IMG/VR virus record: IMGVR_UViG_3300046163_000043
Location: 1 to 24,017 of that record
DNA: 24,017 nt
Direction: 5' to 3' (one strand)
Source: a virus
Below the pieces are notes generated by a model. It saw only the letters and a program-made list of their open reading frames with translations, did not search any database and was not told where the DNA came from. The stretch's first letter is position 1. The number at the start of each line of letters is the position of its first letter. Of the stretch, positions 7,611 through 20,129 are shown piece by piece. The position numbers and the translations under genes were made by a program.

Positions 7611-7913
7611 TTAGGATAATTGAGTAGGGTCGTACATACTGTATTTAACAGTAATTTCTTCTCCATCTTTAATATCTGTTAAAAAATATAAATATCTAAA
7701 TCTTTGAACTTCTACAATCTTTGCATTAGGTTCTTCACTATGATTAATAAAACCACCTAAAGGCGTTCTGTATAATTTTGTAGTTATAGAGTCTTCTATA
7801 TGAGTGATACCACCGTTTACACCTTTTTCTATATCACCTAATGCAAATAGTCCTAATCCATCAATGTTAGATTTATCTATTGTAAGAAATTCAGGTAAAG
7901 GTCTATATGTCAT
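7611..7913 (-). CDS. Minimal SET-domain protein (putative lysine methyltransferase)
   Basis: At 100 residues this is close to the smallest SET fold. The visible signatures are SNIDGLGLFALGDIEKG (residues 15-31, the opening G-x-G motif), GGFINHSEEPNAKI at 53-66 (the NHS pseudoknot motif that binds S-adenosylmethionine) and DGEEITVKYSMYD at 83-95 with the catalytic Tyr region. Known SET enzymes methylate lysine side chains. Pre- and post-SET cysteines are absent, as in other bacterial and viral minimal forms. Its start overlaps the 3' end of the glycosyltransferase gene by 11 bases. The substrate is unknown; a virion or host protein is possible. Confidence 0.85.
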   Translation of the reverse strand: MTYRPLPEFLTIDKSNIDGLGLFALGDIEKGVNGGITHIEDSITTKLYRTPLGGFINHSEEPNAKIVEVQRFRYLYFLTDIKDGEEITVKYSMYDPTQLS

Positions 7914-9289: not shown

Positions 9290-9433
9290 ATGGATTACAT
9301 AATTGGATTTTTAATAGGATATACATTTAAAGAAATTGTTCTATTCCTTAATAGATTAAGTAAGTGGGATTACGATAATCGTTATCAATCTGAATATGAC
9401 TTTCGTCCATTAACAGAAGACGACTTACCTTAA
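9290..9433 (+). CDS. Small rightward membrane-like protein, unknown
   Basis: A 47-residue ORF starts at ATG 9290 just beyond the SOS-like palindrome. Its N-terminus, MDYIIGFLIGYTFKEIVLFL, is hydrophobic enough for one membrane span or amphipathic helix. The rest is Tyr/Asp/Arg-rich and ends in DDLP. It is the only rightward ORF inside the leftward block and overlaps the 3' end of the whiB-like gene by 9 bases. No Shine-Dalgarno is visible (the upstream bases are ATTGAGAGCT), so leaderless translation would be needed. Its placement, composition and clean end suggest it is real, but it could be chance. Confidence 0.45.
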   Translation: MDYIIGFLIGYTFKEIVLFLNRLSKWDYDNRYQSEYDFRPLTEDDLP

Positions 9434-9754
9434 TAAATCTCCTAAAGAAACATCATCATCATTATCAACGATTGGTTTCATCTTACGTTCTTTACGAATA
9501 GCTCTACGTTCTCTTTCTGATTTTCCTCCCCAAATCCCAAAACGCTCTCCTCGTTCCAAAGCTTGTTCTAAGCAAGGCTCTATTACTGGACATTTATTAC
9601 ATATCTCTTTTGCCTTTTTAGTAGAACTGCCTCGTTCTGGAAACCATTCATCAGCATCAAGTTCGGGGTGAACAACTGTGTTACAAGCAGCGTCTGAATA
9701 CCACTCTGGAATTCCTAAGACATCTGCTAATAGGCTTACCTTATCCATATACAC
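9425..9754 (-). CDS. WhiB-family Fe-S transcription regulator
   Basis: The protein carries the four WhiB cysteines: Cys24 (DAACNT), then Cys52 and Cys55 in ICNKCP, and Cys61 in EPCLEQAL. The GIWGG turn at 73-77 and a basic tail RERRAIRKERK follow. These ligate a 4Fe-4S cluster and contact sigma factor. WhiB proteins are restricted to Actinobacteria and their phages, so this is the best host indicator in the window. Some phage WhiBs (such as mycobacteriophage TM4 WhiBTM4) inhibit host WhiB2 and block septation. The start may be GTG at 9754 or ATG at 9748. It sits between the small terminase and the head genes. Confidence 0.95.
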   Translation of the reverse strand: MYMDKVSLLADVLGIPEWYSDAACNTVVHPELDADEWFPERGSSTKKAKEICNKCPVIEPCLEQALERGERFGIWGGKSERERRAIRKERKMKPIVDNDDDVSLGDLLR

Positions 9755-10457: not shown

Positions 10458-10490
10458 CGAAAACAAGAGATTTTTGTACGGGGTGCTAAG
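10458..10490. repeat. Imperfect 33-bp direct repeat, copy 2 (upstream of terS)
   Basis: This is the partner of 9890-9922. It shares CGAAAACAAGA, TTT, TACGG and TGCT at matching positions. It lies between the leftward terS promoter and the start of the rightward structured region, so it could serve either transcription unit or packaging. Confidence 0.55.
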
Positions 10491-10575
10491 CGTTATAGTT
10501 GAGTTACACTAGCGATAACTTGACCACCCCCCCTTATTTGATGGGGATGGTGAGATATACGAGAAAGGAGTACAC

Positions 10576-10620
10576 ATGAGCAAAGTAACAGTTACTTTGA
10601 TATTTGTACCTATTACTTAG
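10576..10620 (+). CDS. 14-codon leader-peptide-like ORF
   Basis: ATG at 10576 follows a strong AAAGGAG site at 10564-10570 with good spacing and encodes MSKVTVTLIFVPIT before TAG. The peptide is hydrophobic with many Val/Thr residues. It lies near the 5' part of the structured region, and its stop is 6 bases before the T-loop minihelix. It may be a leader peptide whose translation affects downstream folding, or the true first gene of the rightward unit. Its short length keeps confidence low. Confidence 0.4.
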   Translation: MSKVTVTLIFVPIT

Positions 10621-10626
10621 TAATAC

Positions 10627-10668
10627 ACCCGTGACGGTCTTTAATCAAGTTCGACTCTTGATACGGGT
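10627..10668 (+). ncRNA. tRNA-elbow-like minihelix, copy 1
   Basis: An outer 6-bp stem (ACCCGT 10627-10632 with ACGGGT 10663-10668) encloses an 11-nt strand GACGGTCTTTA. Next is a 6-bp stem (10644-10649 with 10657-10662) closing the canonical 7-nt T-loop TTCGACT. The layout is that of a tRNA acceptor plus T-arm with a D-loop-like GG strand but no anticodon arm. A second copy with entirely different stem bases, yet the same 11-nt length, GAYGGTC and TTCGACT, lies at 18350-18392. Confidence 0.65.
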
Positions 10669-11129
10669 ACGAGTCCTACACCGAGATACATGGTGACATG
10701 TATTGAGGTGAGAGGATTGTGTCATCCCAGACTTTATGAATCTGGAGAGGGAAAACGTCACATCCCAAACATGCAGTAATGCATTACTAAGTGAAGCGTC
10801 TAAGTACAGACTGACGCCCTGTCGTGGTGAGTGTGTTGAGCCACGGGTTAATAATCAACCACAGGCAGTGAGTACGACTCCTTTGTACTGCGACTGCTTA
10901 GGGCAGTTTTACCTAGCCAGTAGTGACAGTACTGGCGAAAACTCCACAGATAATCACTAGGTAGTCTGGGACGAGTGCTGTTAAGTCAGCTCAGTCTTTG
11001 GGACCTCCTACCCAGTAGCTAGTGACCTGTCGATGAACAATAGCTTGTTGTATAGCTTGTGCTACTTCTTGGTGGAGTAGCCGAAGGTATACACACGGTA
11101 TGCCGTTTACTAAAAAAAGGAGGATATCA

Positions 11130-11378
11130 ATGGATATCTATTTACTAGCAGCAATCGTTGCAACACTTACTTATATGTTTATAGGTAGGGAGTTGCTTAA
11201 CAATATATTTCCTAACTGGAGATATTGGATTGGACTTGAGACTGTCGAAGAGTCTCTTGGCTTTGGTGAAAGAGAAGTTGGTTACATACCTATGGAAGAC
11301 ATAGGAGATTCTACTTTAAAGAATCAATGTGACCATCATCCTGCCTTAGTACTATCTGATTGCTACGGCTGTTTCTAA
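11130..11378 (+). CDS. Small membrane protein of unknown function
   Basis: Translation from ATG 11130 is supported by AAAAAAAGGAGG a few bases upstream; the frame is open earlier but without a ribosome site. The 82-residue product has an N-terminal membrane helix (YLLAAIVATLTYMFIG, residues 3-18). An acidic cytoplasmic-like part with GFGEREVGYIPMEDIGD follows, then a Cys/His-rich end (CDHHPALVLSDCYGCF) that could bind a metal. It is the first sizeable gene of the rightward unit and its stop codon lies in the first boundary hairpin. No family is recognised. Confidence 0.7.
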   Translation: MDIYLLAAIVATLTYMFIGRELLNNIFPNWRYWIGLETVEESLGFGEREVGYIPMEDIGDSTLKNQCDHHPALVLSDCYGCF

Positions 11379-11429
11379 TACAGCACAACTGCTCATCAAG
11401 TTTGACTTGGTGGGCAGCATGGTGTGTTA
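11376..11429 (+). repeat. Gene-boundary hairpin E0
   Basis: The outer stem TAATACA/TGTGTTA (11376-11382 with 11423-11429, 7 bp) includes the stop codon of the upstream gene. An internal loop follows, then a 12-bp inner stem (11389-11400 with 11406-11417) with a 5-nt loop. It has the longest inner stem of the nine related elements and the loosest middle. No T run follows, so it is not a standard terminator. Confidence 0.6.
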
Positions 11430-11462
11430 GTCCAACATACCACTACAAGAAAGGAGATGCAT

Positions 11463-11654
11463 ATGCAATGTATCAAAACGGTTCCGTCTTCTAAGACGAA
11501 GGAGGAACAGTGTACATATCCACCTTATGTCCAGAGTCAAACGGATAAGAGGGAGGTCTTGTGTAGATTCCATTTGATGGATAAAGTCGTAAGACATGCA
11601 CATGAAAAGAAGCAAACAGTTGAACAGACTGTAGCTGATTTAAACATAAGCTAA
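11463..11654 (+). CDS. Small Cys/Lys-rich protein, unknown
   Basis: The start at 11463 is 6 bases after AAAGGAG; an ATG at 11457 is too close to that site. The 63-residue product begins MQCIKTVPSSKTKEEQCTYP. It has three Cys (positions 3, 17 and 35), then a basic helical C-terminal half (CRFHLMDKVVRHAHEKKQ) ending QTVADLNIS. The C-terminal half could be a short DNA-binding or dimerisation helix. There is no hairpin between it and the next mini-ORF, so the two may form one cassette. Confidence 0.6.
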   Translation: MQCIKTVPSSKTKEEQCTYPPYVQSQTDKREVLCRFHLMDKVVRHAHEKKQTVEQTVADLNIS

Positions 11655-11675
11655 AACTGAAAGAGAGGAAGCTAT

Positions 11676-11738
11676 ATGGATGCTAAAGATATAGTGCGTA
11701 ATCCAAACGCATTAGAAGCTATGTACGATATTAGCTAA
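11676..11738 (+). CDS. 20-codon mini-gene ending in a boundary hairpin
   Basis: ATG 11676 follows AGAGAGGAAG and encodes MDAKDIVRNPNALEAMYDIS. The stop codon forms the first base pairs of hairpin E1, exactly as the stops of accepted neighbouring genes do for theirs. That shared geometry is the main reason to believe it is translated. The peptide is a single potential amphipathic helix of unknown role. Confidence 0.45.
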   Translation: MDAKDIVRNPNALEAMYDIS

Positions 11739-11777
11739 TAGCTCGGAGCCTATTGAAAGGTAGGCTCTAAGGTATTA
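11736..11777 (+). repeat. Gene-boundary hairpin E1
   Basis: The outer stem TAATA/TATTA (11736-11740 with 11773-11777) contains the upstream stop. An unpaired G and CTC facing AGG come next. The inner stem is GAGCCTA/TAGGCTC (11746-11752 with 11761-11767) with an 8-nt loop. Confidence 0.75.
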
Positions 11778-11809
11778 ACACAAGGTTAATCCAATACTAA
11801 AGGAGAGAC

Positions 11810-12124
11810 ATGAATCTAATCATGAGACTAATACATGCAGTACCACTGTATGTTTTCATGGTCATTGAAAACTATCGTTTCTATGGCGTGAATTATGTTA
11901 CCAGTTTGACACACTGGTGGCGTGTAGAGGTATATACAATTACGGACTACAAGAAGTATGTGTTGTGTGAGCACATCAAGGAGTTCAGTAGTTGGTATGG
12001 ACCTAAGCGTAGATACAACCATACTAAACATTCTTTAAAGAAGTTAGAGAGTGTTCTGGATGAAGTTGAACAAGAAAATAGAAGGCAACAATTTCTTGAA
12101 CTAGATACAAATTATCCACGCTAA
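11810..12124 (+). CDS. Protein of unknown function (104 residues)
   Basis: ATG 11810 follows ACTAAAGGAGAGAC. The N-terminus (MNLIMRLIHAVPLYVFMVIENY) is hydrophobic and may be a membrane anchor. The middle is aromatic (THWWRVEVYTITDYKKYVLCEH) and the C-terminal third is a charged helix (HSLKKLESVLDEVEQENRRQQFLEL), likely coiled coil. It lies between hairpins E1 and E2 as a single-gene cassette. No family is recognised. Confidence 0.65.
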   Translation: MNLIMRLIHAVPLYVFMVIENYRFYGVNYVTSLTHWWRVEVYTITDYKKYVLCEHIKEFSSWYGPKRRYNHTKHSLKKLESVLDEVEQENRRQQFLELDTNYPR

Positions 12125-12164
12125 TAGCTCGGAGTTCATTTATGAGGTGAACTCTAGGGTATTA
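12122..12164 (+). repeat. Gene-boundary hairpin E2
   Basis: The outer stem is TAATA/TATTA (12122-12126 with 12160-12164), followed by an unpaired G and CTC facing GGG. The inner stem GAGTTCA/TGAACTC (12132-12138 with 12148-12154) changes two pairs together relative to E1. The upstream stop lies in the outer stem. Confidence 0.78.
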
Positions 12165-12194
12165 ACAATGATACCACTAAAAAAAGGAGACTAT

Positions 12195-12395
12195 ATGAAG
12201 AAGAGTCTATTCAAGAAAATCACTTATCTAATTGAGTGTTTTTATAGTTTAGCAAAAGGTAGATACACTGCTGACATTGAAGCATTGAATATTGCTATGG
12301 ATGTTTATGGAAAGTATCTATTTGTAAACCTAGGTGAATTCGAGGGAGCACCTAAGTTAATGTTGTTCACAGCATCCTGTTGTCCCGACTGTTAA
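12195..12395 (+). CDS. Small protein of unknown function (66 residues)
   Basis: The ATG at 12195 is preceded by ACTAAAAAAAGGAGACTAT, which decides the start over an upstream in-frame ATG at 12147 inside hairpin E2. The product begins MKKSLFKKITYLIECFYSLAKG and ends APKLMLFTASCCPDC, giving a terminal three-Cys cluster that might bind a metal or be redox active. The middle is helical (DIEALNIAMDVYGKYL). It is a single-gene cassette between E2 and E3. Confidence 0.65.
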   Translation: MKKSLFKKITYLIECFYSLAKGRYTADIEALNIAMDVYGKYLFVNLGEFEGAPKLMLFTASCCPDC

Positions 12396-12436
12396 TAACT
12401 CGGAGCTCATTGTAATGATGGGCTCTAGGGTATTGA
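12392..12436 (+). repeat. Gene-boundary hairpin E3
   Basis: The outer stem is TTAATA/TATTGA (12392-12397 with 12431-12436), then an unpaired A where the other copies have G, then CTC facing GGG. The inner stem is 8 bp (12403-12410 with 12418-12425). Confidence 0.78.
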
Positions 12437-12468
12437 CACAAGGTTAGTACTAAAAGAAGGAGGGCTAA

Positions 12469-12648
12469 ATGCCTAAAATAAAAGATACTGCCAAAGTTAT
12501 ATTGTCAGACGAGACAAGGGACGAGATGGTATATACGTGGAATGCATTCAACTTGGATGTTACCAAAGAAAGAAAACGAGAGCTTATGGGTCTTGTTTGG
12601 ATACCAGCTTATGTCAATTGTTTCTTTAAGGAAATGATAGATAGCTAA
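12469..12648 (+). CDS. Small protein of unknown function (59 residues)
   Basis: This gene starts at ATG 12469 after ACTAAAAGAAGGAGG and ends in TAA within hairpin E4. The product begins MPKIKDTAKVILSDETRDEMV and ends VNCFFKEMIDS. It is charged at the N-terminus and more hydrophobic in the C-terminal half (LMGLVWIPAYVNCFF). Spacing, ribosome site and boundary hairpins match its neighbours, so it is accepted despite its size. No family is recognised. Confidence 0.62.
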   Translation: MPKIKDTAKVILSDETRDEMVYTWNAFNLDVTKERKRELMGLVWIPAYVNCFFKEMIDS

Positions 12649-12686
12649 TAGCTCGGAGCTCATTCACGTGGGCTCTAGGGTGTTAG
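12645..12686 (+). repeat. Gene-boundary hairpin E4
   Basis: The outer stem CTAATA/TGTTAG (12645-12650 with 12681-12686) is followed by an unpaired G and CTC facing GGG. The inner 8-bp stem (12656-12663 with 12668-12675) closes a TCAC tetraloop. A G-U pair in the outer stem replaces an A-U seen in E1 and E2. Confidence 0.8.
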
Positions 12687-12720
12687 TAATTCGACTAACC
12701 CACTAAAAGAAGGAGACTAT

Positions 12721-12879
12721 ATGAAGAAGATATTTGTAATCGAGCAAATTGTCAAAGAACAATATAAGGTCGAAGCAAATAATGAGGAAGAAGCTACCTC
12801 TAAACTTCAAGATATGACTGCTGAACCATTCTTACAGGAAGGTATCAGTTTGAGAATTCTTGAGACGAGAACTAAGTAA
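12721..12879 (+). CDS. Small protein of unknown function (52 residues)
   Basis: ATG 12721 follows ACTAAAAGAAGGAGACTAT. The product MKKIFVIEQIVKEQYKVEAN continues with a negatively charged helix (NEEEATSKLQDM) and a final strand (ISLRILETRTK). The beta-alpha-beta order resembles small phage DUF-type proteins with a short ferredoxin-like half, but no family can be named. No hairpin separates it from the next gene, only an AAAGGAGG ribosome site, so the two form a pair. Confidence 0.65.
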   Translation: MKKIFVIEQIVKEQYKVEANNEEEATSKLQDMTAEPFLQEGISLRILETRTK

Positions 12880-12894
12880 AAGAAAGGAGGCTTT

Positions 12895-13020
12895 ATGTTA
12901 TGTAGTCATTGTGGTAAATCCATGAAGAATACAAAAGTAAAGTTTAGAAAGTTCATGAGGCAAGGTGTAGTAGGTATGGCTCCTACTTGCAATGATTGTT
13001 ATATGTCATGGGCAATATAG
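12895..13020 (+). CDS. Small zinc-ribbon-like protein (41 residues)
   Basis: ATG 12895 follows AGAAAGGAGGCTTT. The protein MLCSHCGKSMKNTKVKFRKF continues to TCNDCYMSWAI, giving two CxxC knuckles about 26 residues apart, as in small zinc ribbons. Basic residues between them suggest nucleic-acid binding. Its stop at 13018-13020 lies just before hairpin E5. Confidence 0.7.
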   Translation: MLCSHCGKSMKNTKVKFRKFMRQGVVGMAPTCNDCYMSWAI

Positions 13021-13021
13021 C

Positions 13022-13067
13022 TTAAACAGCTCGGACCTACTAGATATAGTGGGTCTAGGGTGTTTAA
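13022..13067 (+). repeat. Gene-boundary hairpin E5
   Basis: The outer stem TTAAACA/TGTTTAA (13022-13028 with 13061-13067, 7 bp) uses different bases from E1-E4 but keeps pairing. It is followed by the unpaired G and CTC/GGG. The inner stem is 13034-13041 with 13048-13055. It is the clearest case of covariation in the outer stem. Confidence 0.8.
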
Positions 13068-13083
13068 CACCAACATTATAAAT

Positions 13084-13148
13084 ATTGAGTTGACGTAGCA
13101 GTATTAATAATGTACAGTAAAAACTACAGATTGAGCGTCAACCTCAAT
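13084..13148 (+). promoter_or_regulatory. Promoter inside a long inverted repeat, upstream of the first amidoligase gene
   Basis: TTGACG (13090-13095) and TACAGT (13113-13118) are 17 bp apart, a good SigA-type promoter. The -35 box is part of ATTGAGTTGACG at 13084-13095, which pairs with 13136-13148 (12 bp with one bulged C). The repeat could be an operator or, in read-through transcripts, a hairpin in the leader. It suggests the long enzyme genes can be transcribed separately from the small-gene cassettes. Confidence 0.55.
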
Positions 13149-13176
13149 CCGTATAACCAATAAAAAAGGAGATAAA

Positions 13177-15177
13177 TTGAAAGTAGAAAATCTATCGTTT
13201 AACGAGATGATTGTTCAATTTGTAGCTATGTTGGAGGAACTACCAAGTCAAATGCATGAGCAATCATGTAACTGGCTTACTGGTGGAGATGCCGACTTTG
13301 AGTACGATGACATGGATGACCTTGTCAATAATCACTTCGATAGTGAGGATGAGTTGTACTACTACCTTTACGAAAGATTCGTAGATGTAGCAGTTGCTCG
13401 CCATAGTTCTCAAAACGTTTCACGACGTAGAGCTACGTTCAATGCAAGTGATGAGCATGCCTCATTCAACCATAGTTACTATTCTCACAGGAGAATGTAT
13501 ATTGTGGAAGCATTGGAGAATGCTAGATATGAAGTAGAAGCAACGGAGAATACTCTTCGTGTACGTTTCTTCGAGTATGTGCCAACTAGACCTGATATGA
13601 AGAACTGGTTGTTCTTATCATATGATGGTGAGGAACGCAGATATGGAAACATAGCTAGTCACTGGAAGATAGAAATGTTCAAGCGTAAGCTTGTTGCTAC
13701 TGCTGGTATGAGAGAGAGTTCAAGAACTAGAAAGTTCTGTCCTCACTGTCGTGCAGTATGTAACCCTACGACTGACATGTTCACTATCAACCAGGGTAGA
13801 AGTCGACCAATTAAAGTATGTGTGTTATGCACAATATACTTTTATGACTTCTATGAATTGAGCACTGGCACTTTCCACTATGTAGGTAACGAAGATGACT
13901 TAGATACTGTTGACTATTCAGCAGAACTAATCACTAGAGTTACTGACTTACGTAACTTCAAACGTTACGACTTAGTGGACTGGATAAAAGACCGAGTTGG
14001 TGTGGTACCATTCATTCCTAATTACAATTATGAAGACTACCACTCTGAACTAAATTGGTCCTTTTGGCAGACTACTGACCAAGGTACTGTAGCTATACCT
14101 AATAATAGATATGGCACTACAGTACAGAGGGATGTAACCCATGAGTCCAAAGAGTATGCTCGTAAGGGTATACCGATTGGAATGGAATTGGAAGTTCAAT
14201 ATAGGGACTTACAAGACCAACTAACTGGTGGAATACGTAAACTATTACATCCATTGCATAAGGATTTTCCTTATAACAATGAGAGATTACGTAGTACAAA
14301 CAATCAGTTAGCTATTGGGTCATACGACGTATCGACTGGTAGACATGGTCTGGAGTTCAAGTTCCAACCTATGTCACATCAGTTCGTTGCAAAACTACCC
14401 GATGACTTCTTTGAGACTTTGGTCTCAGAGTTCAGAGGATACAATGCAAAACGTTGTGGTATTCATATGAATATCCCCAAGAGTGTACTAAGTACAGGTC
14501 AGTACTGGTTCTTTATCGCTTGGCACAATATGAGACTATGGGAATACACTCACGCAAGTGAAGATGGTTACCATAACATATTGGGTGACATCTATCAGAG
14601 AGTAGATGCAGAATATGCTAAGTGGTTAAGTCTTACTGAAGTGTCAATACCAGAGTCTGGATACGACTTTGAATGTCGCTGTGGTAATCATGATGGTGAG
14701 TCTCAAGTAGTTACTATTGCTTGTAGCACATCAAGATACCTAGCAAGGCGAACTTCAAGTCCTGACAGAGCGTGCTGGATTAACATAGAGAATGCTGACA
14801 GAGTGGAAGTTAGAGCGTTTGCTTCAAATACATTGAAGTCCAGACTGCTCAAGAACTACCAGTTCTTAGATGCTTTCATGACTTATGCTGACGCAGTAAC
14901 ACTCAGTTACAAAACTAATCAAATGCAAAATATCAATGGTGGTATACAGAAGGAGCTTGAAGCTGCTTTTGAACCAGACGATTTAGGTATTGTTTTGAAT
15001 CACTTAAACAATCAATACCTGTTTGTATCTTGGTTAGATGCAACTGGTTATTGCCATCAGTATCCAGAACTCACGGAATACTTGGACTCGAAAGGGTACA
15101 GAGCCAGAGCCAATGAGGCTATGGAATCTAGTGCTTCGTTCAAAGAACAAGTAGACCATGTAGTTAACTGGTCATAA
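13177..15177 (+). CDS. Large amidoligase-like protein (diverged COOH-NH2 ligase family)
   Basis: The 666-residue protein starts with TTG behind AAAAAAGGAGATAAA. Residues 1-185 are acidic and unrecognised. Residues 188-218 hold a zinc ribbon (CPHC and CVLC). From 331 it follows the glutamine-synthetase-like amidoligase fold (PF12224-type): IGMELEV at 334-340, SYDVSTGRHGLEFKFQPMS at 382-400 and CGIHMNIPKS at 427-436. A second Cys pair (ECRCG) is near 499-503. Compared with the shorter relative at 17149 it lacks the Lys of the KxDxS motif and has HMN where that protein has HVH. It may therefore be a variant enzyme or a structural partner. The family forms amide bonds between a carboxylate and an amine using ATP. 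Confidence 0.78.
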   Translation: MKVENLSFNEMIVQFVAMLEELPSQMHEQSCNWLTGGDADFEYDDMDDLVNNHFDSEDELYYYLYERFVDVAVARHSSQNVSRRRATFNASDEHASFNHSYYSHRRMYIVEALENARYEVEATENTLRVRFFEYVPTRPDMKNWLFLSYDGEERRYGNIASHWKIEMFKRKLVATAGMRESSRTRKFCPHCRAVCNPTTDMFTINQGRSRPIKVCVLCTIYFYDFYELSTGTFHYVGNEDDLDTVDYSAELITRVTDLRNFKRYDLVDWIKDRVGVVPFIPNYNYEDYHSELNWSFWQTTDQGTVAIPNNRYGTTVQRDVTHESKEYARKGIPIGMELEVQYRDLQDQLTGGIRKLLHPLHKDFPYNNERLRSTNNQLAIGSYDVSTGRHGLEFKFQPMSHQFVAKLPDDFFETLVSEFRGYNAKRCGIHMNIPKSVLSTGQYWFFIAWHNMRLWEYTHASEDGYHNILGDIYQRVDAEYAKWLSLTEVSIPESGYDFECRCGNHDGESQVVTIACSTSRYLARRTSSPDRACWINIENADRVEVRAFASNTLKSRLLKNYQFLDAFMTYADAVTLSYKTNQMQNINGGIQKELEAAFEPDDLGIVLNHLNNQYLFVSWLDATGYCHQYPELTEYLDSKGYRARANEAMESSASFKEQVDHVVNWS

Positions 15178-15178
15178 G

Positions 15179-15225
15179 TAGATAGCTAGAGCCCATCTGA
15201 AATATGGTGGGCTCGATGGTATCTA
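15179..15225 (+). repeat. Gene-boundary hairpin E6
   Basis: The outer stem is TAGATA/TATCTA (15179-15184 with 15220-15225), then an unpaired G. CTA facing TGG replaces CTC/GGG with pairing kept. The inner 8-bp stem is 15189-15196 with 15207-15214. It lies just after the first amidoligase stop. Confidence 0.75.
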
Positions 15226-15286
15226 TATAGGAAAGGATACTAGGTGAAGTTCATACCTAAAAGTTGAACAATAAGGAGGTACACAA

Positions 15287-16348
15287 TTGTGTATTATAGC
15301 TAGTGTTCCAGCAGGAGCACAAGTAACCAAAGACCAACTATCAGAGATGTGGACACGCAACCCTGATGGTGGTGGTATTGCATATTTCGTCGATGGCGAA
15401 ATCAAAGTAGAGAAAGATATGGAACGTGAAAGTTTTATTGACACTGTACTTGAGACGCAGAAGAAATATGGTAATCGAGACATATTAGTACATATGAGAA
15501 TAGCAACTCATGGTGCTGTATGCATCGACAATACTCACCCGTTTGAGGTCAACAAGAACACAGTCATGGCACATAATGGTATATTGCCAGAAGCATTTAT
15601 ACCACCAGCTAAGTCTGCGTTATCTGACACTCGATTCTTCATAGATTACTTTATGAAGTACATTCCAGTGCAGAAATTGGATGACCCTTACTTCCAAGAC
15701 ATGGTTGACGAAATGATTAACCAAGGTTACGGAAATAAGTTGGTGTTCTTAACATCTGCTAAGACTAAGTATGACACTTATATCATAGGTGAAAAGCTTG
15801 GTGTATGGGATGGAGGTGTGTGGTTTAGTAACAGCTCTTACGAGAGTAGGAAGTTTGTTAGCTACAACTACCATCGAGGAACAACTCAAACGATAGATGG
15901 CGTAACTATCTCAGATAATTGCGAAATCTTACCAATAGTTGATGACGTCGACTTAGTAGAAGAAGGCGAAATCAATGACTGGTTGGTTTACCATTCAGAC
16001 CTGTGGCTACCATTCCAAGAAGTTGGAGTGCTTGACCACAAGGAAATGAAAGATTCGTTCTGTGTCGAAATGACATGGGACGGTCTTCGTTGTTCTGAGT
16101 GTGGTAAGACTGTAGCTGGTATCTATGAAAGAATGTGCAACTCAGATTGTAAATCAATCGAGCATGTAATTGATTGGGTATATGACAACATCGAAGCATC
16201 TGACGAGATGATTGATGCAGCTTTGTATTCAGGAATGCTCTACCAAGGTGGAGAACCTGTTACAGACGGTCAGCCTACTTTGTTTGACATGTCTACTAAG
16301 ACTAAGAAAAAGTCTAAGAAGAATAAATCAAACAAAAAGTCTAAGTAG
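15287..16348 (+). CDS. Class II glutamine amidotransferase-like protein
   Basis: Starting at TTG 15287 (after AATAAGGAGG) places the nucleophile Cys at position 2 (MCIIASVPAG), as required for N-terminal nucleophile glutaminases. Other class II landmarks are RNPDGGGIAYF, HMRIATHG at 69-76, NTHPFEV at 82-88 and MAHNGIL at 94-100. The domain hydrolyses glutamine to release ammonia. Residues about 100-260 have no recognised partner domain. A CSECGK...CNSDC zinc-ribbon-like segment follows, and the tail is Lys-rich. It lies between two amidoligase-like genes, so it could feed ammonia to them or act as an Ntn amidase on their products. Confidence 0.85.
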   Translation: MCIIASVPAGAQVTKDQLSEMWTRNPDGGGIAYFVDGEIKVEKDMERESFIDTVLETQKKYGNRDILVHMRIATHGAVCIDNTHPFEVNKNTVMAHNGILPEAFIPPAKSALSDTRFFIDYFMKYIPVQKLDDPYFQDMVDEMINQGYGNKLVFLTSAKTKYDTYIIGEKLGVWDGGVWFSNSSYESRKFVSYNYHRGTTQTIDGVTISDNCEILPIVDDVDLVEEGEINDWLVYHSDLWLPFQEVGVLDHKEMKDSFCVEMTWDGLRCSECGKTVAGIYERMCNSDCKSIEHVIDWVYDNIEASDEMIDAALYSGMLYQGGEPVTDGQPTLFDMSTKTKKKSKKNKSNKKSK

Positions 16349-16402
16349 TACTTAGCTTATCGGGGTATCAAGTTTCATGCTTGGTGCCCCGTCAGGTAAG
16401 TA
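16349..16402 (+). repeat. Gene-boundary hairpin E7
   Basis: The outer stem is TACTTA/TAAGTA (16349-16354 with 16397-16402), then an unpaired G. CTT facing AGG is paired. The inner stem is 11 bp (16362-16372 with 16380-16390) with a 7-nt loop. It begins directly after the glutamine amidotransferase stop. Confidence 0.75.
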
Positions 16403-16452
16403 AAACGCTTACCCATGTAGAAATACATGCCAATACTAAAAGGAGAAAGACT

Positions 16453-17034
16453 ATGAACAAACCAATACCAAAGTTCCTTCATGAAGACCTGAAGAAGCTT
16501 ATTGGAAAAAGGAATCCAACACAAGATGACGTTAGCAAGTTACTTGAGTTGGTGTTCACAACTAAATATCGTTGGACAGAACGTGTTATGCAATACCAAA
16601 ATGTTCACTATGAGGCAGAAACTCATGTATCTTTAGAGGATATGCTAGAAGATAGTGGTGAGCTAAGCGACTTAATTGATGCTTGGCAACGAGGTGATGT
16701 AGAAGAATGCACCGCCATTATTGGTAATGCAGTTGACGTAGCTGAGGACGACTTACATGACAATCGTTGGGACCATTCAGATGAGGTAGATAGAGACTAC
16801 CTTGATGAAGAGTTTGAAGATACGATTGACTCAGATGTGGATACGTTCGTAACTACTAGACAACAAGGTACATCCTGGATGGGCGAGCGACTCAGAGACT
16901 ATCATATTCATGAGGGTCAACAGCACTTCTTTGTATGGAAAAACGTCGTTAATTGGTTCGCCAATAGACGAAGTACTCCTATGAACACGGCTGCTCATGT
17001 AAGATACACGAGACAGGATGAGGAGACGAACTAA
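16453..17034 (+). CDS. Acidic protein of unknown function between the amidotransferase and second amidoligase
   Basis: ATG 16453 is chosen because ACTAAAAGGAGAAAGACT precedes it; the frame is open back to 16381 without a ribosome site and across hairpin E7. The 193-residue product is helical and strongly acidic in its middle (LEDMLEDSGELSDLIDAW, then VAEDDLHDNRWDHSDEVDRD). The C-terminus is more basic and aromatic (HFFVWKNVVNWFANRRS). No family is recognised. Its place inside the enzyme group makes it a candidate substrate, carrier or accessory subunit of the amide-forming system, but nothing in its sequence proves this. Confidence 0.68.
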   Translation: MNKPIPKFLHEDLKKLIGKRNPTQDDVSKLLELVFTTKYRWTERVMQYQNVHYEAETHVSLEDMLEDSGELSDLIDAWQRGDVEECTAIIGNAVDVAEDDLHDNRWDHSDEVDRDYLDEEFEDTIDSDVDTFVTTRQQGTSWMGERLRDYHIHEGQQHFFVWKNVVNWFANRRSTPMNTAAHVRYTRQDEETN

Positions 17035-17039
17035 AGCTA

Positions 17040-17090
17040 GCTAGTAGCTAACCTCCCTCTACTTAATTGTGGGGGGAGACAGGTGCTAGC
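17040..17090 (+). repeat. Gene-boundary hairpin E8
   Basis: The outer stem GCTAGTA/TGCTAGC (17040-17046 with 17084-17090, 7 bp) is followed by an unpaired G and CTA facing AGG (two pairs). The 10-bp inner stem (17053-17062 with 17069-17078) has a TTAATT loop. The overlapping GCTAG tandem at 17036-17044 allows a one-register shift. Confidence 0.7.
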
Positions 17091-17148
17091 ACCCGTTAAG
17101 TACTACGACGTTACTGTAGTGCACATACTAAAAAAAGGAGATACACTT

Positions 17149-18198
17149 ATGTGTAGAGAAGAATGCTATTCTGTAGTTCCCGAACTGCAGTCTTATAGCC
17201 ATAAGCCAGAAGTCAAGTACATTGATACTCGATTCATGACCCTAGGTGGTTATGACCCAGGTAATCATACTGTATTTGTTGGTCATCATGCCGATAAAAC
17301 AGAAGAGTACTTGAAATCTGCTGTCGATGCTACTGATGGATTCATTCCGATGGGAGTGGAAATAGAAGTAGAACACACATCAGAAACCGACCACGGTATG
17401 AGTAGAGGTGAATCTACAGAGGAAGCTCTGATAGAATTACATGACTACTCACCACACTATATTGACGAGTCAGACTCAAGACTTAGACAATTAATAATTG
17501 CTAAGACTGACAGCTCACTTAGTCATGGTGTGGAGTTCGTAACACAACCTATGACTGTTAGAGCTCATAAGTTGATGAACTGGGAAGCATTGCAGAGTAA
17601 AGGCTTTTATGCCTGGAATGCGAGTACTGCAGGAATGCATGTACATCTTCCTAAGTCATACTTTACGACTACTCAGTTGTGGTTGTTCTTAAAGTTATAT
17701 CAAAACCTCTGGACGTCAGAGAAAGATTACTTTAACTGGCTAGCTGGTAGAGCAGAAAACAGTTGGGCTAAAAGGCAAATGCCTTTCAGAAACTCAGCTG
17801 ATAACAATCTACTAGCAGTTGCTTCTACAAAGTGGGACGATAGACGAGACAGATATTCTGCCTTGAACTTCCTCAATGCCTATACAATTGAGTTAAGGTT
17901 CTTTCGTTCTAACATGAACATCGATGGACTATTAAGTAGACTTGAATTCGTTCAAGCATCTTATGACTTCGTTTGTGTTCTAAGTAGACTCAACAAGAAA
18001 GATATGTTCGATGCTATAAACTTCGGACTATCAAAGCAGTTACATCTGTTTATGATTGGTAACAAATCAGAGTATCCAATCATCTCAGAGAGATTGCTTA
18101 ATACAAATAAGTTCGGTGTTACATCTGACTTCGTTAACGAAGACATGGTGATACCATCGTTAATCAATGGGTTAAACCAAGTAAGGAAAGGAGCGTAG
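17149..18198 (+). CDS. Amidoligase-like enzyme (COOH-NH2 ligase family, motifs intact)
   Basis: The start is ATG 17149 after ACTAAAAAAAGGAGATACACTT; earlier in-frame codons overlap hairpin E8. The 349-residue protein matches the PF12224-type amidoligase. It has MGVEIEVEH at 68-76 (metal/ATP-binding Glu pair), IIAKTDSSLSHGVEFVTQPM at 116-135 (KxDxS then Glu) and TAGMHVHLPKS at 160-170. A helical domain follows, and ELRFFRSNMNIDGLLSRLEF near 250-270 fits the C-terminal Arg-rich strand. Relatives are predicted to join gamma- or alpha-carboxylates to amines with ATP. The final stop TAG shares its G with the GTG start of the next small gene. Confidence 0.86.
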   Translation: MCREECYSVVPELQSYSHKPEVKYIDTRFMTLGGYDPGNHTVFVGHHADKTEEYLKSAVDATDGFIPMGVEIEVEHTSETDHGMSRGESTEEALIELHDYSPHYIDESDSRLRQLIIAKTDSSLSHGVEFVTQPMTVRAHKLMNWEALQSKGFYAWNASTAGMHVHLPKSYFTTTQLWLFLKLYQNLWTSEKDYFNWLAGRAENSWAKRQMPFRNSADNNLLAVASTKWDDRRDRYSALNFLNAYTIELRFFRSNMNIDGLLSRLEFVQASYDFVCVLSRLNKKDMFDAINFGLSKQLHLFMIGNKSEYPIISERLLNTNKFGVTSDFVNEDMVIPSLINGLNQVRKGA

Positions 18199-18344
18199 TG
18201 GATACAATACTAACTGCTACAATCTGGTTCTTCCTCACTATCGGCTTGGCAGGTGCAATTGCATTCTACCTATCCAAAGACGTCGACATGAGCGACGATT
18301 ATAGGACTATCTATAATTGGTACTCTGACGACGACGAGGAGTAA
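18198..18344 (+). CDS. Small single-span membrane protein, translationally coupled
   Basis: GTG 18198 overlaps the amidoligase stop (TAGTG) and is preceded by AAGGAAAGGAG. The 48-residue product has one membrane helix (ILTATIWFFLTIGLAGAIAF, residues 4-23) followed by an acidic, Tyr-rich tail ending SDDDEE. Coupling makes a functional link with the amidoligase likely, for example tethering it to the membrane; that is inference. It is the last gene of the rightward unit, and its stop is 5 bases before the second T-loop minihelix. Confidence 0.7.
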   Translation: MDTILTATIWFFLTIGLAGAIAFYLSKDVDMSDDYRTIYNWYSDDDEE

Positions 18345-18349
18345 CCTAA

Positions 18350-18392
18350 AGCCTGGATGGTCGCATGGAGGGTTCGACTCCCTCCACAGGCT
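18350..18392 (+). ncRNA. tRNA-elbow-like minihelix, copy 2
   Basis: The outer stem is AGCCTG/CAGGCT (18350-18355 with 18387-18392), then an 11-nt strand GATGGTCGCAT. The T-stem GGAGGG/CCCTCC (18367-18372 with 18380-18385) closes the loop TTCGACT. All stem bases differ from the copy at 10627-10668, while GAYGGTC, the 11-nt spacing and the T-loop are kept. CTCTTTAA follows, so at the end of the operon it could also help terminate transcription. Confidence 0.7.
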
Positions 18393-19499: not shown

Positions 19500-19579
19500 T
19501 GGACGTGGAGGGAATCGAACCCTCGTTACTTCTCATAATTACCGTCCCGCAACTACAATAAGTCTATCCATTCACGCCC
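19500..19579 (-). ncRNA. tRNA-like structure with atypical middle
   Basis: On the minus strand a 7-bp acceptor-like stem forms between GGGCGTG (19573-19579) and CACGTCC (19501-19507, one G-U). It encloses a perfect T-arm, GAGGG and CCCTC around TTCGATT (19508-19524). The first 5' bases overlap the stop codon of the gene at 19572. The intervening 48 nt is about six longer than in a normal tRNA, and I find no convincing D-arm or anticodon arm with U33, so no amino acid is assigned. It may be a degraded tRNA, a tRNA fragment at an attachment site, or a larger relative of the T-loop minihelices. Confidence 0.4.
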
Positions 19580-20129
19580 CAAAACTTGCGTCTAACACTC
19601 CTGTTTCTAAATATTTAAGTCTTTCAGCGTTAAAATCCCACTTAGGTTTAAGATGATGTTCCTCAGCAACTTCATTTGCTTTACGTCTATCCCATTCTTT
19701 AAGTGCAGTTTCAAACTTTCTTATACTACCTAGAGGCATTTGTTCATGGTCGTGGTCTTTCCAATATCTTAGACGTTCTCCAACATTGTGGTCTCTTTCA
19801 GACATCACATTCGCTAAATCAACGATTTTAATCTTTCTTTTGACTATAGCTTCGTTTATATAAATGGGGTCTAAGATAAATTCTAAATCATCAGCAGTAA
19901 TGAAGTTAGGGTATTTGTTGGGACTAAGTCTTTGATAATCTCTTAAAGTATCACTTATTGCTTTATAAGTTTTGTACTTGGGTATCCTCTTTTTCGACTT
20001 CACACTACGTATGTAACCACTTTTAGCACCGACAACTTTTTCAAAATTGGATATAACCACACCCTCGTCGACAAACTTTTGAAACATTTCCCAAAACCTG
20101 TCTTCTTTAATTATTCTTGTTCTCCTCAT
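19572..20129 (-). CDS. Putative HTH DNA-binding protein
   Basis: The second ATG (20129) is chosen because GGAGGA lies 4 bases before it; the ATG at 20141 overlaps that site. The 185-residue protein is basic. Two segments look like Xre/Arc-type helix-turn-helix units: VISNFEKVVGAKSGYIRSVK with KKRIPKYKTYKAISDTLRDY, and KIVDLANVMSERDHNVGERL with LGSIRKFETALKEW. Two weak tandem HTH domains suggest a regulator. The palindromes immediately upstream are obvious candidate operators. Its stop codon lies in the tRNA-like element. Confidence 0.6.
   Translation of the reverse strand: MRRTRIIKEDRFWEMFQKFVDEGVVISNFEKVVGAKSGYIRSVKSKKRIPKYKTYKAISDTLRDYQRLSPNKYPNFITADDLEFILDPIYINEAIVKRKIKIVDLANVMSERDHNVGERLRYWKDHDHEQMPLGSIRKFETALKEWDRRKANEVAEEHHLKPKWDFNAERLKYLETGVLDASFGA

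Follow-up and report, generated by a model that had tools for sequence, protein, structure and literature searches.

The window analysed here is one complete IMG/VR virus record (IMGVR_UViG_3300046163_000043) of 24,017 bases. It contains a rightward gene module (positions 11130–18345, plus strand) that is punctuated by short hairpin elements. Nine of these (E0–E8) had been described in an initial annotation as hairpins of one design, and this observation of repeated covarying hairpins is confirmed. The elements are a real, undescribed intercistronic RNA family that is common to several unrelated actinophages, and whose function we infer. Two alternative folds are predicted for the element, termed fold A and fold B, and these, together with their joint covariation, are established by comparison of the copies.

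All nine hairpins are found at the positions first assigned to them. A structural descriptor (outer stem of at least 5 bp, an A or G bulge, CTN/NGG, and an inner stem of at least 6 bp) yields seven matches on the plus strand of the window and none on the minus strand; in the shuffled region the mean is 0.025 per shuffle (200 shuffles, maximum 2). E1 and E8 are added once a 2-bp middle helix is allowed. The nine copies share the single design, with E0 the loosest of them, as its middle helix is only 2 bp. The descriptor also detects a tenth copy that the initial annotation did not list, termed EL, at positions 11049–11093 (TGTATA-G-CTT...AGG-TATACA), within the leader that precedes the first module gene. 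EL is kept in four contigs (L068, L072, L077 and L094), with stem length and loop altered in these relatives. All window copies are on the sense strand of the module. Three same-strand junctions are without an element (11654/11676, 12879/12894 and the overlap at 18198), and gaps no longer than about 20 nt carry none.

Fold A joins strand 1, which includes the stop codon, the bulged G and CUN, to strand 2, made up of NGG and the 3′ arm. The consensus displays an outer stem (UAAUA/UAUUA), the bulged G, CUC/GGG, a G opposite UA, and an inner stem. In 50 aligned copies, 48 of them distinct, 12 of 16 pairs are changed on both sides and 96.9% of the cells are paired, in an alignment that was fitted to the model; sliding one strand reduces the paired cells to 32%–50%. 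There are 89 double-change cells versus 13 after shuffling, and the observed covariation values were reached in 0 of 500 shuffles, a control that ignores relatedness. The covariation exceeds both the shuffled and the slid controls, which bears out the selected RNA structure that had been proposed. Compensation is also seen between orthologous sites: the E8 site has GCTAGTA/TGCTAGC in the window and ACTAGTA/TACTAGT in L072 and L077, and an inner stem that follows the same upstream gene end reads GAGTTCA/TGAACTC in L012 and GAGCTCA/TGAGCTC in L005. The copies fall into two classes, one with a CUCGGA/UCUAGGG core and one in which the geometry is kept without the full core (EL, E0, E6, E7 and E8); the third middle pair, C-G, is replaced by A-U in E6 and by U-A in E7. 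The total fold A helix measures 19.4 ± 1.7 bp (40 distinct copies), close to two turns, and every class has an internal loop in it.

Fold B was missed by the initial annotation. Here strand 2, formed by the GG and the outer 3′ arm, pairs with a third strand (strand 3), which lies downstream, just before the Shine-Dalgarno (SD) site. This pairing competes with the outer stem of fold A and the two folds are mutually exclusive. Examples are GGUGUGUU/AACAUACC in E0, GGUAAG/CUUACC in E7, GGUAUAC/GUAUGCC in EL and, outside the window, GUGUUAGGA/UCCUAAUAC in L070. The mean energy of fold B is −8.1 kcal/mol (53 copies), compared with −4.7 ± 0.27 when downstream parts are swapped among copies, and the best of 200 such swaps gives −5.4 kcal/mol. 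At each of the first five positions of strand 2, the base can pair with strand 1 as well as with strand 3 in 36–55 of 55 copies, and the three strands covary triply, e.g. U/A/U, C/G/C and U/G/C. All 55 copies start the 2:3 helix at core base 1 or 2, in almost every case at the core G pair. The bulged G and a U.G pair weaken the 1:2 pairing, while 2:3 is usually an uninterrupted helix. The summed energies of the two folds have a median difference of 2.8 kcal/mol, and predicted fold occupancy spans nearly all A to nearly all B. With energies near each other and occupancies so spread, the element looks bistable. An additional 5′ hairpin upstream of strand 1 (0:1, AGCU/AGCU) was also considered; it is weakly supported (z about −2 versus swaps) and is not claimed.

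The ten window copies, all on the plus strand, are located as follows. EL occupies 11049–11104, of which 11086–11104 form the 2:3 hairpin GGTATAC/GTATGCC. In E0 (11376–11441) the fold A hairpin is at 11376–11429 with the stop codon TAA at 11376, and the 2:3 hairpin GGTGTGTT/AACATACC is at 11421–11441. E1 (11736–11792) has its hairpin at 11736–11777, the TAA of a mini-gene at 11736, and its 2:3 hairpin at 11771–11792. The hairpin of E2 (12122–12175) is at 12122–12164, again with TAA as its first triplet (12122), followed by GGTATTA/TGATACC at 12158–12175. E3 (12390–12451) differs in its bulge, which is A; its hairpin is at 12390–12438, the TAA at 12393, and the 2:3 hairpin at 12429–12451. E4 (12644–12701) shows a hairpin at 12644–12687, TAA at 12646, and 2:3 pairing at 12679–12701. 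In E5 (13022–13071) the stop codon, TAG, is just upstream of the hairpin (13022–13067), and GGTGT/ACACC is at 13059–13071. E6 (15178–15241) likewise follows its TAA; the hairpin, with a CTA/TGG middle helix, is at 15178–15226 and the 2:3 hairpin at 15218–15241. E7 (16349–16413) has a TAG 3 nt upstream of a hairpin at 16349–16402 (middle helix CTT/AGG), and GGTAAG/CTTACC at 16395–16413. Finally, the TAA of E8 (17040–17093) is 8 nt upstream of the hairpin (17040–17090), and the 2:3 hairpin GGTGCTAGCACC is at 17082–17093. A translation-start motif, ACTAAAARAAGGAG, follows several elements; it is found at 11109–11122 (plus strand), with more exact copies at 12176, 12449, 12702 and 17127.

The initial annotation placed the hairpins usually at or just after stop codons, and this extends beyond the window: among 56 copies from all contigs, the outer stem of most begins with the stop codon itself (offset 0), and in most of the remaining copies that codon is 1–8 nt upstream of the stem. 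The next SD-bearing start codon is 23–37 nt past most hairpins. No substantial gene terminates at EL, which suggests that the function is not tied to the stop codon.

Searches with the exact pattern and with a covariance model (R1) over 2.9 million viral contigs revealed about 50 further copies, in related and unrelated actinophage contigs. One group of carriers shares the terminase and/or the module of the window (L068, L072, L077 and L069) and has more distant members (L070, L073, L074, L079, L100, L109 and L111). A second group (L078, L081, L082 and L133) has no close homologues of window proteins where tested, and its terminase is different where one is seen (L081 and L082). Retention of the element by phages with the same genes, which the initial annotation had proposed as a check, is observed: at least one copy is present in each retrieved contig with close homologues of the module (L068, L069, L072 and L077), as well as in the more distant L070, L074, L076, L079, L080 and L100. 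No copy was found in the distant module relatives L106–L108, L110 and L112, and the terminase relatives without an element are contigs that stop before the module. The strict pattern was not found in 84,980 species genomes, and R1 gave no match in the genomes of 395 members of the Paractinoplanes class (Actinobacteria), a search without a positive control. BLAST of the DNA or of the element consensus against isolate phages gave nothing or chance matches only. The absence of a named family with this form, also noted initially, agrees with Rfam 15, where there are no matches at the gathering score; at E ≤ 10 there are two chance-level matches, neither a true element match.

Homology between the window and its relatives, as shown by BLAST, breaks at the elements. 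In the comparison with L068, seven of eight ends of matches of at least 100 nt inside the module are within 5 nt of a stretch that runs from an element to the SD site. For all relatives, 50% of the homology ends are within 15 nt of such a stretch, compared with 17% expected. In L068 different genes occupy the E2–E3 and E4–E5 intervals, and a stretch of about 730 bp comes after E0. These alignments show that the elements bound exchanged gene cassettes.

The best, though tentative, explanation of these properties is a cis-acting intercistronic “process-and-cap” element in a polycistronic phage mRNA, a possible function in which the cleavage is a predicted step. Fold A, in which the inner hairpin is lengthened to about 19 bp and interrupted by an internal loop, would be cut at this loop by a double-strand- or structure-specific host RNase, with RNase III the leading candidate. 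The upstream mRNA would be left with the inner hairpin as its 3′ end beside the stop codon, shielded from 3′ exonucleases. The cut would remove strand 1 and free strand 2 to pair with strand 3, and the downstream mRNA would begin with a hairpin 0–2 nt from its 5′ end, shielded from 5′-end-dependent decay and followed by an open ribosome-binding site. One operon transcript would in this way give rise to separately stable messages. Such a process would account for the position of the 2:3 helix, directly behind the internal loop, and for a copy (EL) in the leader, and a ready-made cassette boundary would explain the exchange of genes between copies. The length of the helix and its internal loop are as expected of an RNase III processing hairpin. 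Copies on the sense strand only, an open SD site, a lack of promoter or U-tract enrichment, and homology breakpoints at the elements are also counted in favour of process-and-cap.

Several points weigh against it. T7-type RNase III sites need no conserved sequence, and the CUCGGA/UCUAGGG core common to most copies hints at a specific binder; this invariant core of one class, which process-and-cap leaves unexplained, may be a protein or nuclease determinant. The balance of folds A and B is highly variable between copies (p(1:2) from 0.01 to 1.00), and the elements could act without any cut. The regularity in helix length (19.4 ± 1.7 bp) was measured with a descriptor that itself sets minimum stem lengths. 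A broader proposal, which we regard as doubtful, is that the elements are a new class of mobile RNA punctuation element, i.e. a three-strand RNA switch that would turn genes into plug-in cassettes of polycistronic transcripts in unrelated actinophages; in about 60 nt it would provide the stop codon, a 3′ hairpin, a site for processing, and a 5′ hairpin that forms by itself on the next message.

A translational insulator, or a termination-coupled switch without cleavage, is a rather unlikely alternative. A ribosome terminating at the stop codon would cover strand 1 so that strands 2 and 3 pair, while an untranslated element would adopt fold A; either fold would hold the next ribosome-binding site in a fixed, open context and block unwanted coupling. 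This would agree with the stop codon at offset 0 in most copies, the distance of 23–37 nt from most hairpins to the next start and the near balance of the two folds. The SD site, however, is sequestered by neither fold in a conserved way. It is open in both, its openness being 0.68, or 0.67 when a ribosome occupies the stop codon, and its pairing with strand 1 is not above control (−3.69 versus −3.36 ± 0.18 for swapped pairs); sequestration by strand 1 gives an attractive fold in E2 and E4, yet one no better than swapped pairs. The leader copy EL, at which no substantial gene ends, is a further point against an insulator.

The nearly invariant core, in helices that otherwise vary, would also suit the binding site of a trans-acting phage or host protein that reads the bulged G and the internal-loop core, in put-like antitermination, repression or mRNA protection, and its presence in unrelated actinophages could be explained by a shared host factor. 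This is improbable, given that the five window copies without the full core keep the two-fold geometry and that put-type sites are near an early promoter, not at every gene end. Of the four functions between which the initial annotation left the choice open (translational insulation, RNase cleavage, put-like antitermination and binding of a phage protein), put-like antitermination is made less likely by the 2:3 fold and EL, which speak for RNA processing or insulation.

DNA exchange as the selected function, by recombination sites of the integron attC type or by homology patches like the PeSLs of T4-like phages, draws on the homology breakpoints and on the cassettes replaced in L068, but it leaves the 2:3 pairing, the stop-codon register and the one-strand orientation unexplained. 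The attC boxes (R″ RYYYAAC and R′ GTTRRRY) are present in no window element and in one model-confirmed element only (L078, 1917–1965). No tyrosine recombinase (PF00589) was found in 14 carriers, whose contigs are fragmentary, while control genomes gave matches. We consider this function quite improbable. Transcription signals, either U-less intrinsic terminators or promoter-hairpin cassettes like the extended start-associated sequences (ESAS) of cluster K mycobacteriophages, which join inverted repeats to SigA-like promoters (PMC11373665), are very improbable even though the hairpins follow genes, since a U-tract occurs in one of 49 gaps (1.6 expected), in line with the initial annotation, a promoter-like site (SigA-like −35/−10) also in one of 49 (4 expected in shuffles), and a module that has no internal promoters would lose expression of its later genes if transcription were repeatedly terminated.

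The window encodes capsid, prohead protease, portal and terminase genes, and a WhiB protein gene at 9425–9754. A WhiB protein is present in all 20 related or element-bearing records tested and, among control genomes, in Corynebacterium only, which identifies these as phages of Actinobacteria. Small open reading frames make up the module together with two amidoligase-like paralogues (13177–15177 and 17149–18198, plus strand) and a class-II glutamine amidotransferase (15287–16348, plus strand). Module DNA has no match in a BLAST search of an isolate-phage collection; Mycobacterium phage Marvin and its relatives carry distant homologues of two module genes. The pairing of amidoligase-like and amidotransferase genes is also present in Mycobacterium phages related to Marvin, and an amidotransferase homologue is found in Methylophilales phage MEP401. 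Marvin itself gives no R1 match; a plain strong hairpin without the core (GGGGACGGGCAACGTTGCCCGTCCCC) is located right after its gp105 (L020, 7988–8040), in a comparable intergenic gap. The mini-gene that terminates at E1 (11676–11738, plus strand) encodes 20 aa and has its own SD site, and in L068 and L077 a short open reading frame of similar length likewise terminates at the corresponding element.

The leader of the module (10460–11100) is GC-richer (about 44%) and apparently non-coding, and its conservation in L072 and L077 is mostly limited to EL and a mini-helix. This mini-helix (10627–10668) and a second one (18350–18392) flank the module on the plus strand. Both resemble a tRNA elbow: a stem of 5–6 bp, GAYGGUC, and a 6-bp stem closing a UUCGACU T-loop. 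They are compensated in L072 and L094 (CCCGU/ACGGG to CCCAU/AUGGG, and AUCAAG/CUUGAU to GUCAAG/CUUGAC), and no tRNA is predicted at either position. On the minus strand, a T-arm-like GAGGGTTCGATTCCCTC is part of a possible degenerate tRNA at 19500–19580, where ARAGORN finds nothing, and positions 7611–7913 encode a protein of 100 aa that matches the SET domain (Pfam, E = 1.6e-8), which is unusual for a phage.

How a new small gene becomes expressible in a long operon of a mosaic phage genome is rarely visible in sequence. The elements, which sit exactly at the swap sites, would supply each cassette with its own stop codon, mRNA ends and start context. They are compact, come in about 60 natural variants and lend themselves to direct tests in a model actinobacterium; if process-and-cap is true, they would also give operon engineering a part that is ready for use. 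Otherwise uncultured actinophages can be approached through the covariance model and consensus.

Several known systems can be compared with the elements. The intergenic RNase III hairpins of phage T7 are similar, as these irregular structures of ~20 bp, each interrupted by an internal loop, also separate the genes of a single transcript; the elements have the length and internal loop of such sites (19.4 ± 1.7 bp), and their cleavage is predicted. To our knowledge, T7 sites lack a competing strand downstream from which a new 5′ hairpin could form, and have neither a stop-codon register nor a common core. The put sites of HK022, which modify RNA polymerase, form hairpins shortly after early promoters. 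The elements do have a leader copy, EL, yet copies are found at most gene ends.

The ESAS are repeated imperfect inverted repeats in intergenic gaps, linked to start sites through the start-associated sequence (SAS) motif (PMC3203893, PMC11373665). They resemble the elements as actinophage intergenic inverted repeats in almost all cases of one orientation, near start-site motifs and tied to particular genes. The elements differ in that they start at the stop codon, their stems vary freely, and they have the extra 2:3 fold and no promoter. SAS GGGATAGGAGCCC is not found at start codons; there is one site with three mismatches, inside a gene, fewer than expected by chance. The analogy to ESAS drawn in the initial annotation is a loose one, as SigA-like promoters belong to the ESAS but were not found in these gaps. 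The PeSLs (promoter early stem-loops) of T4-like phages (Arbiol 2010, Comeau 2014; cited in PMC4503421) are intergenic units of a promoter and a stem-loop terminator that are reported to bound shuffled cassettes. The elements likewise bound exchanged cassettes, but enrichment of promoters or U-tracts is not found in their gaps.

Integron attC sites and phage CALINs place a structured, sequence-variable hairpin after each cassette gene of the same direction (PMC9892861). A hairpin with unpaired bases after each gene of a same-direction array is common to both systems, while the extra 2:3 fold distinguishes the elements. Model R1 has no match in TJE1, a phage with tested attC sites. CALINs are by definition without a tyrosine recombinase. 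The plastid intercistronic expression element is also short and yields stable monocistronic mRNAs from an operon (PMC2230500); it is a plastid element without sequence relation to the present family and forms no repeated array. REP-like elements are set aside because the copies here share one orientation and the stop-codon register. The elements fail tested defining features of attC, ESAS and PeSL, and would work most like an RNA processing and cassette-boundary element.

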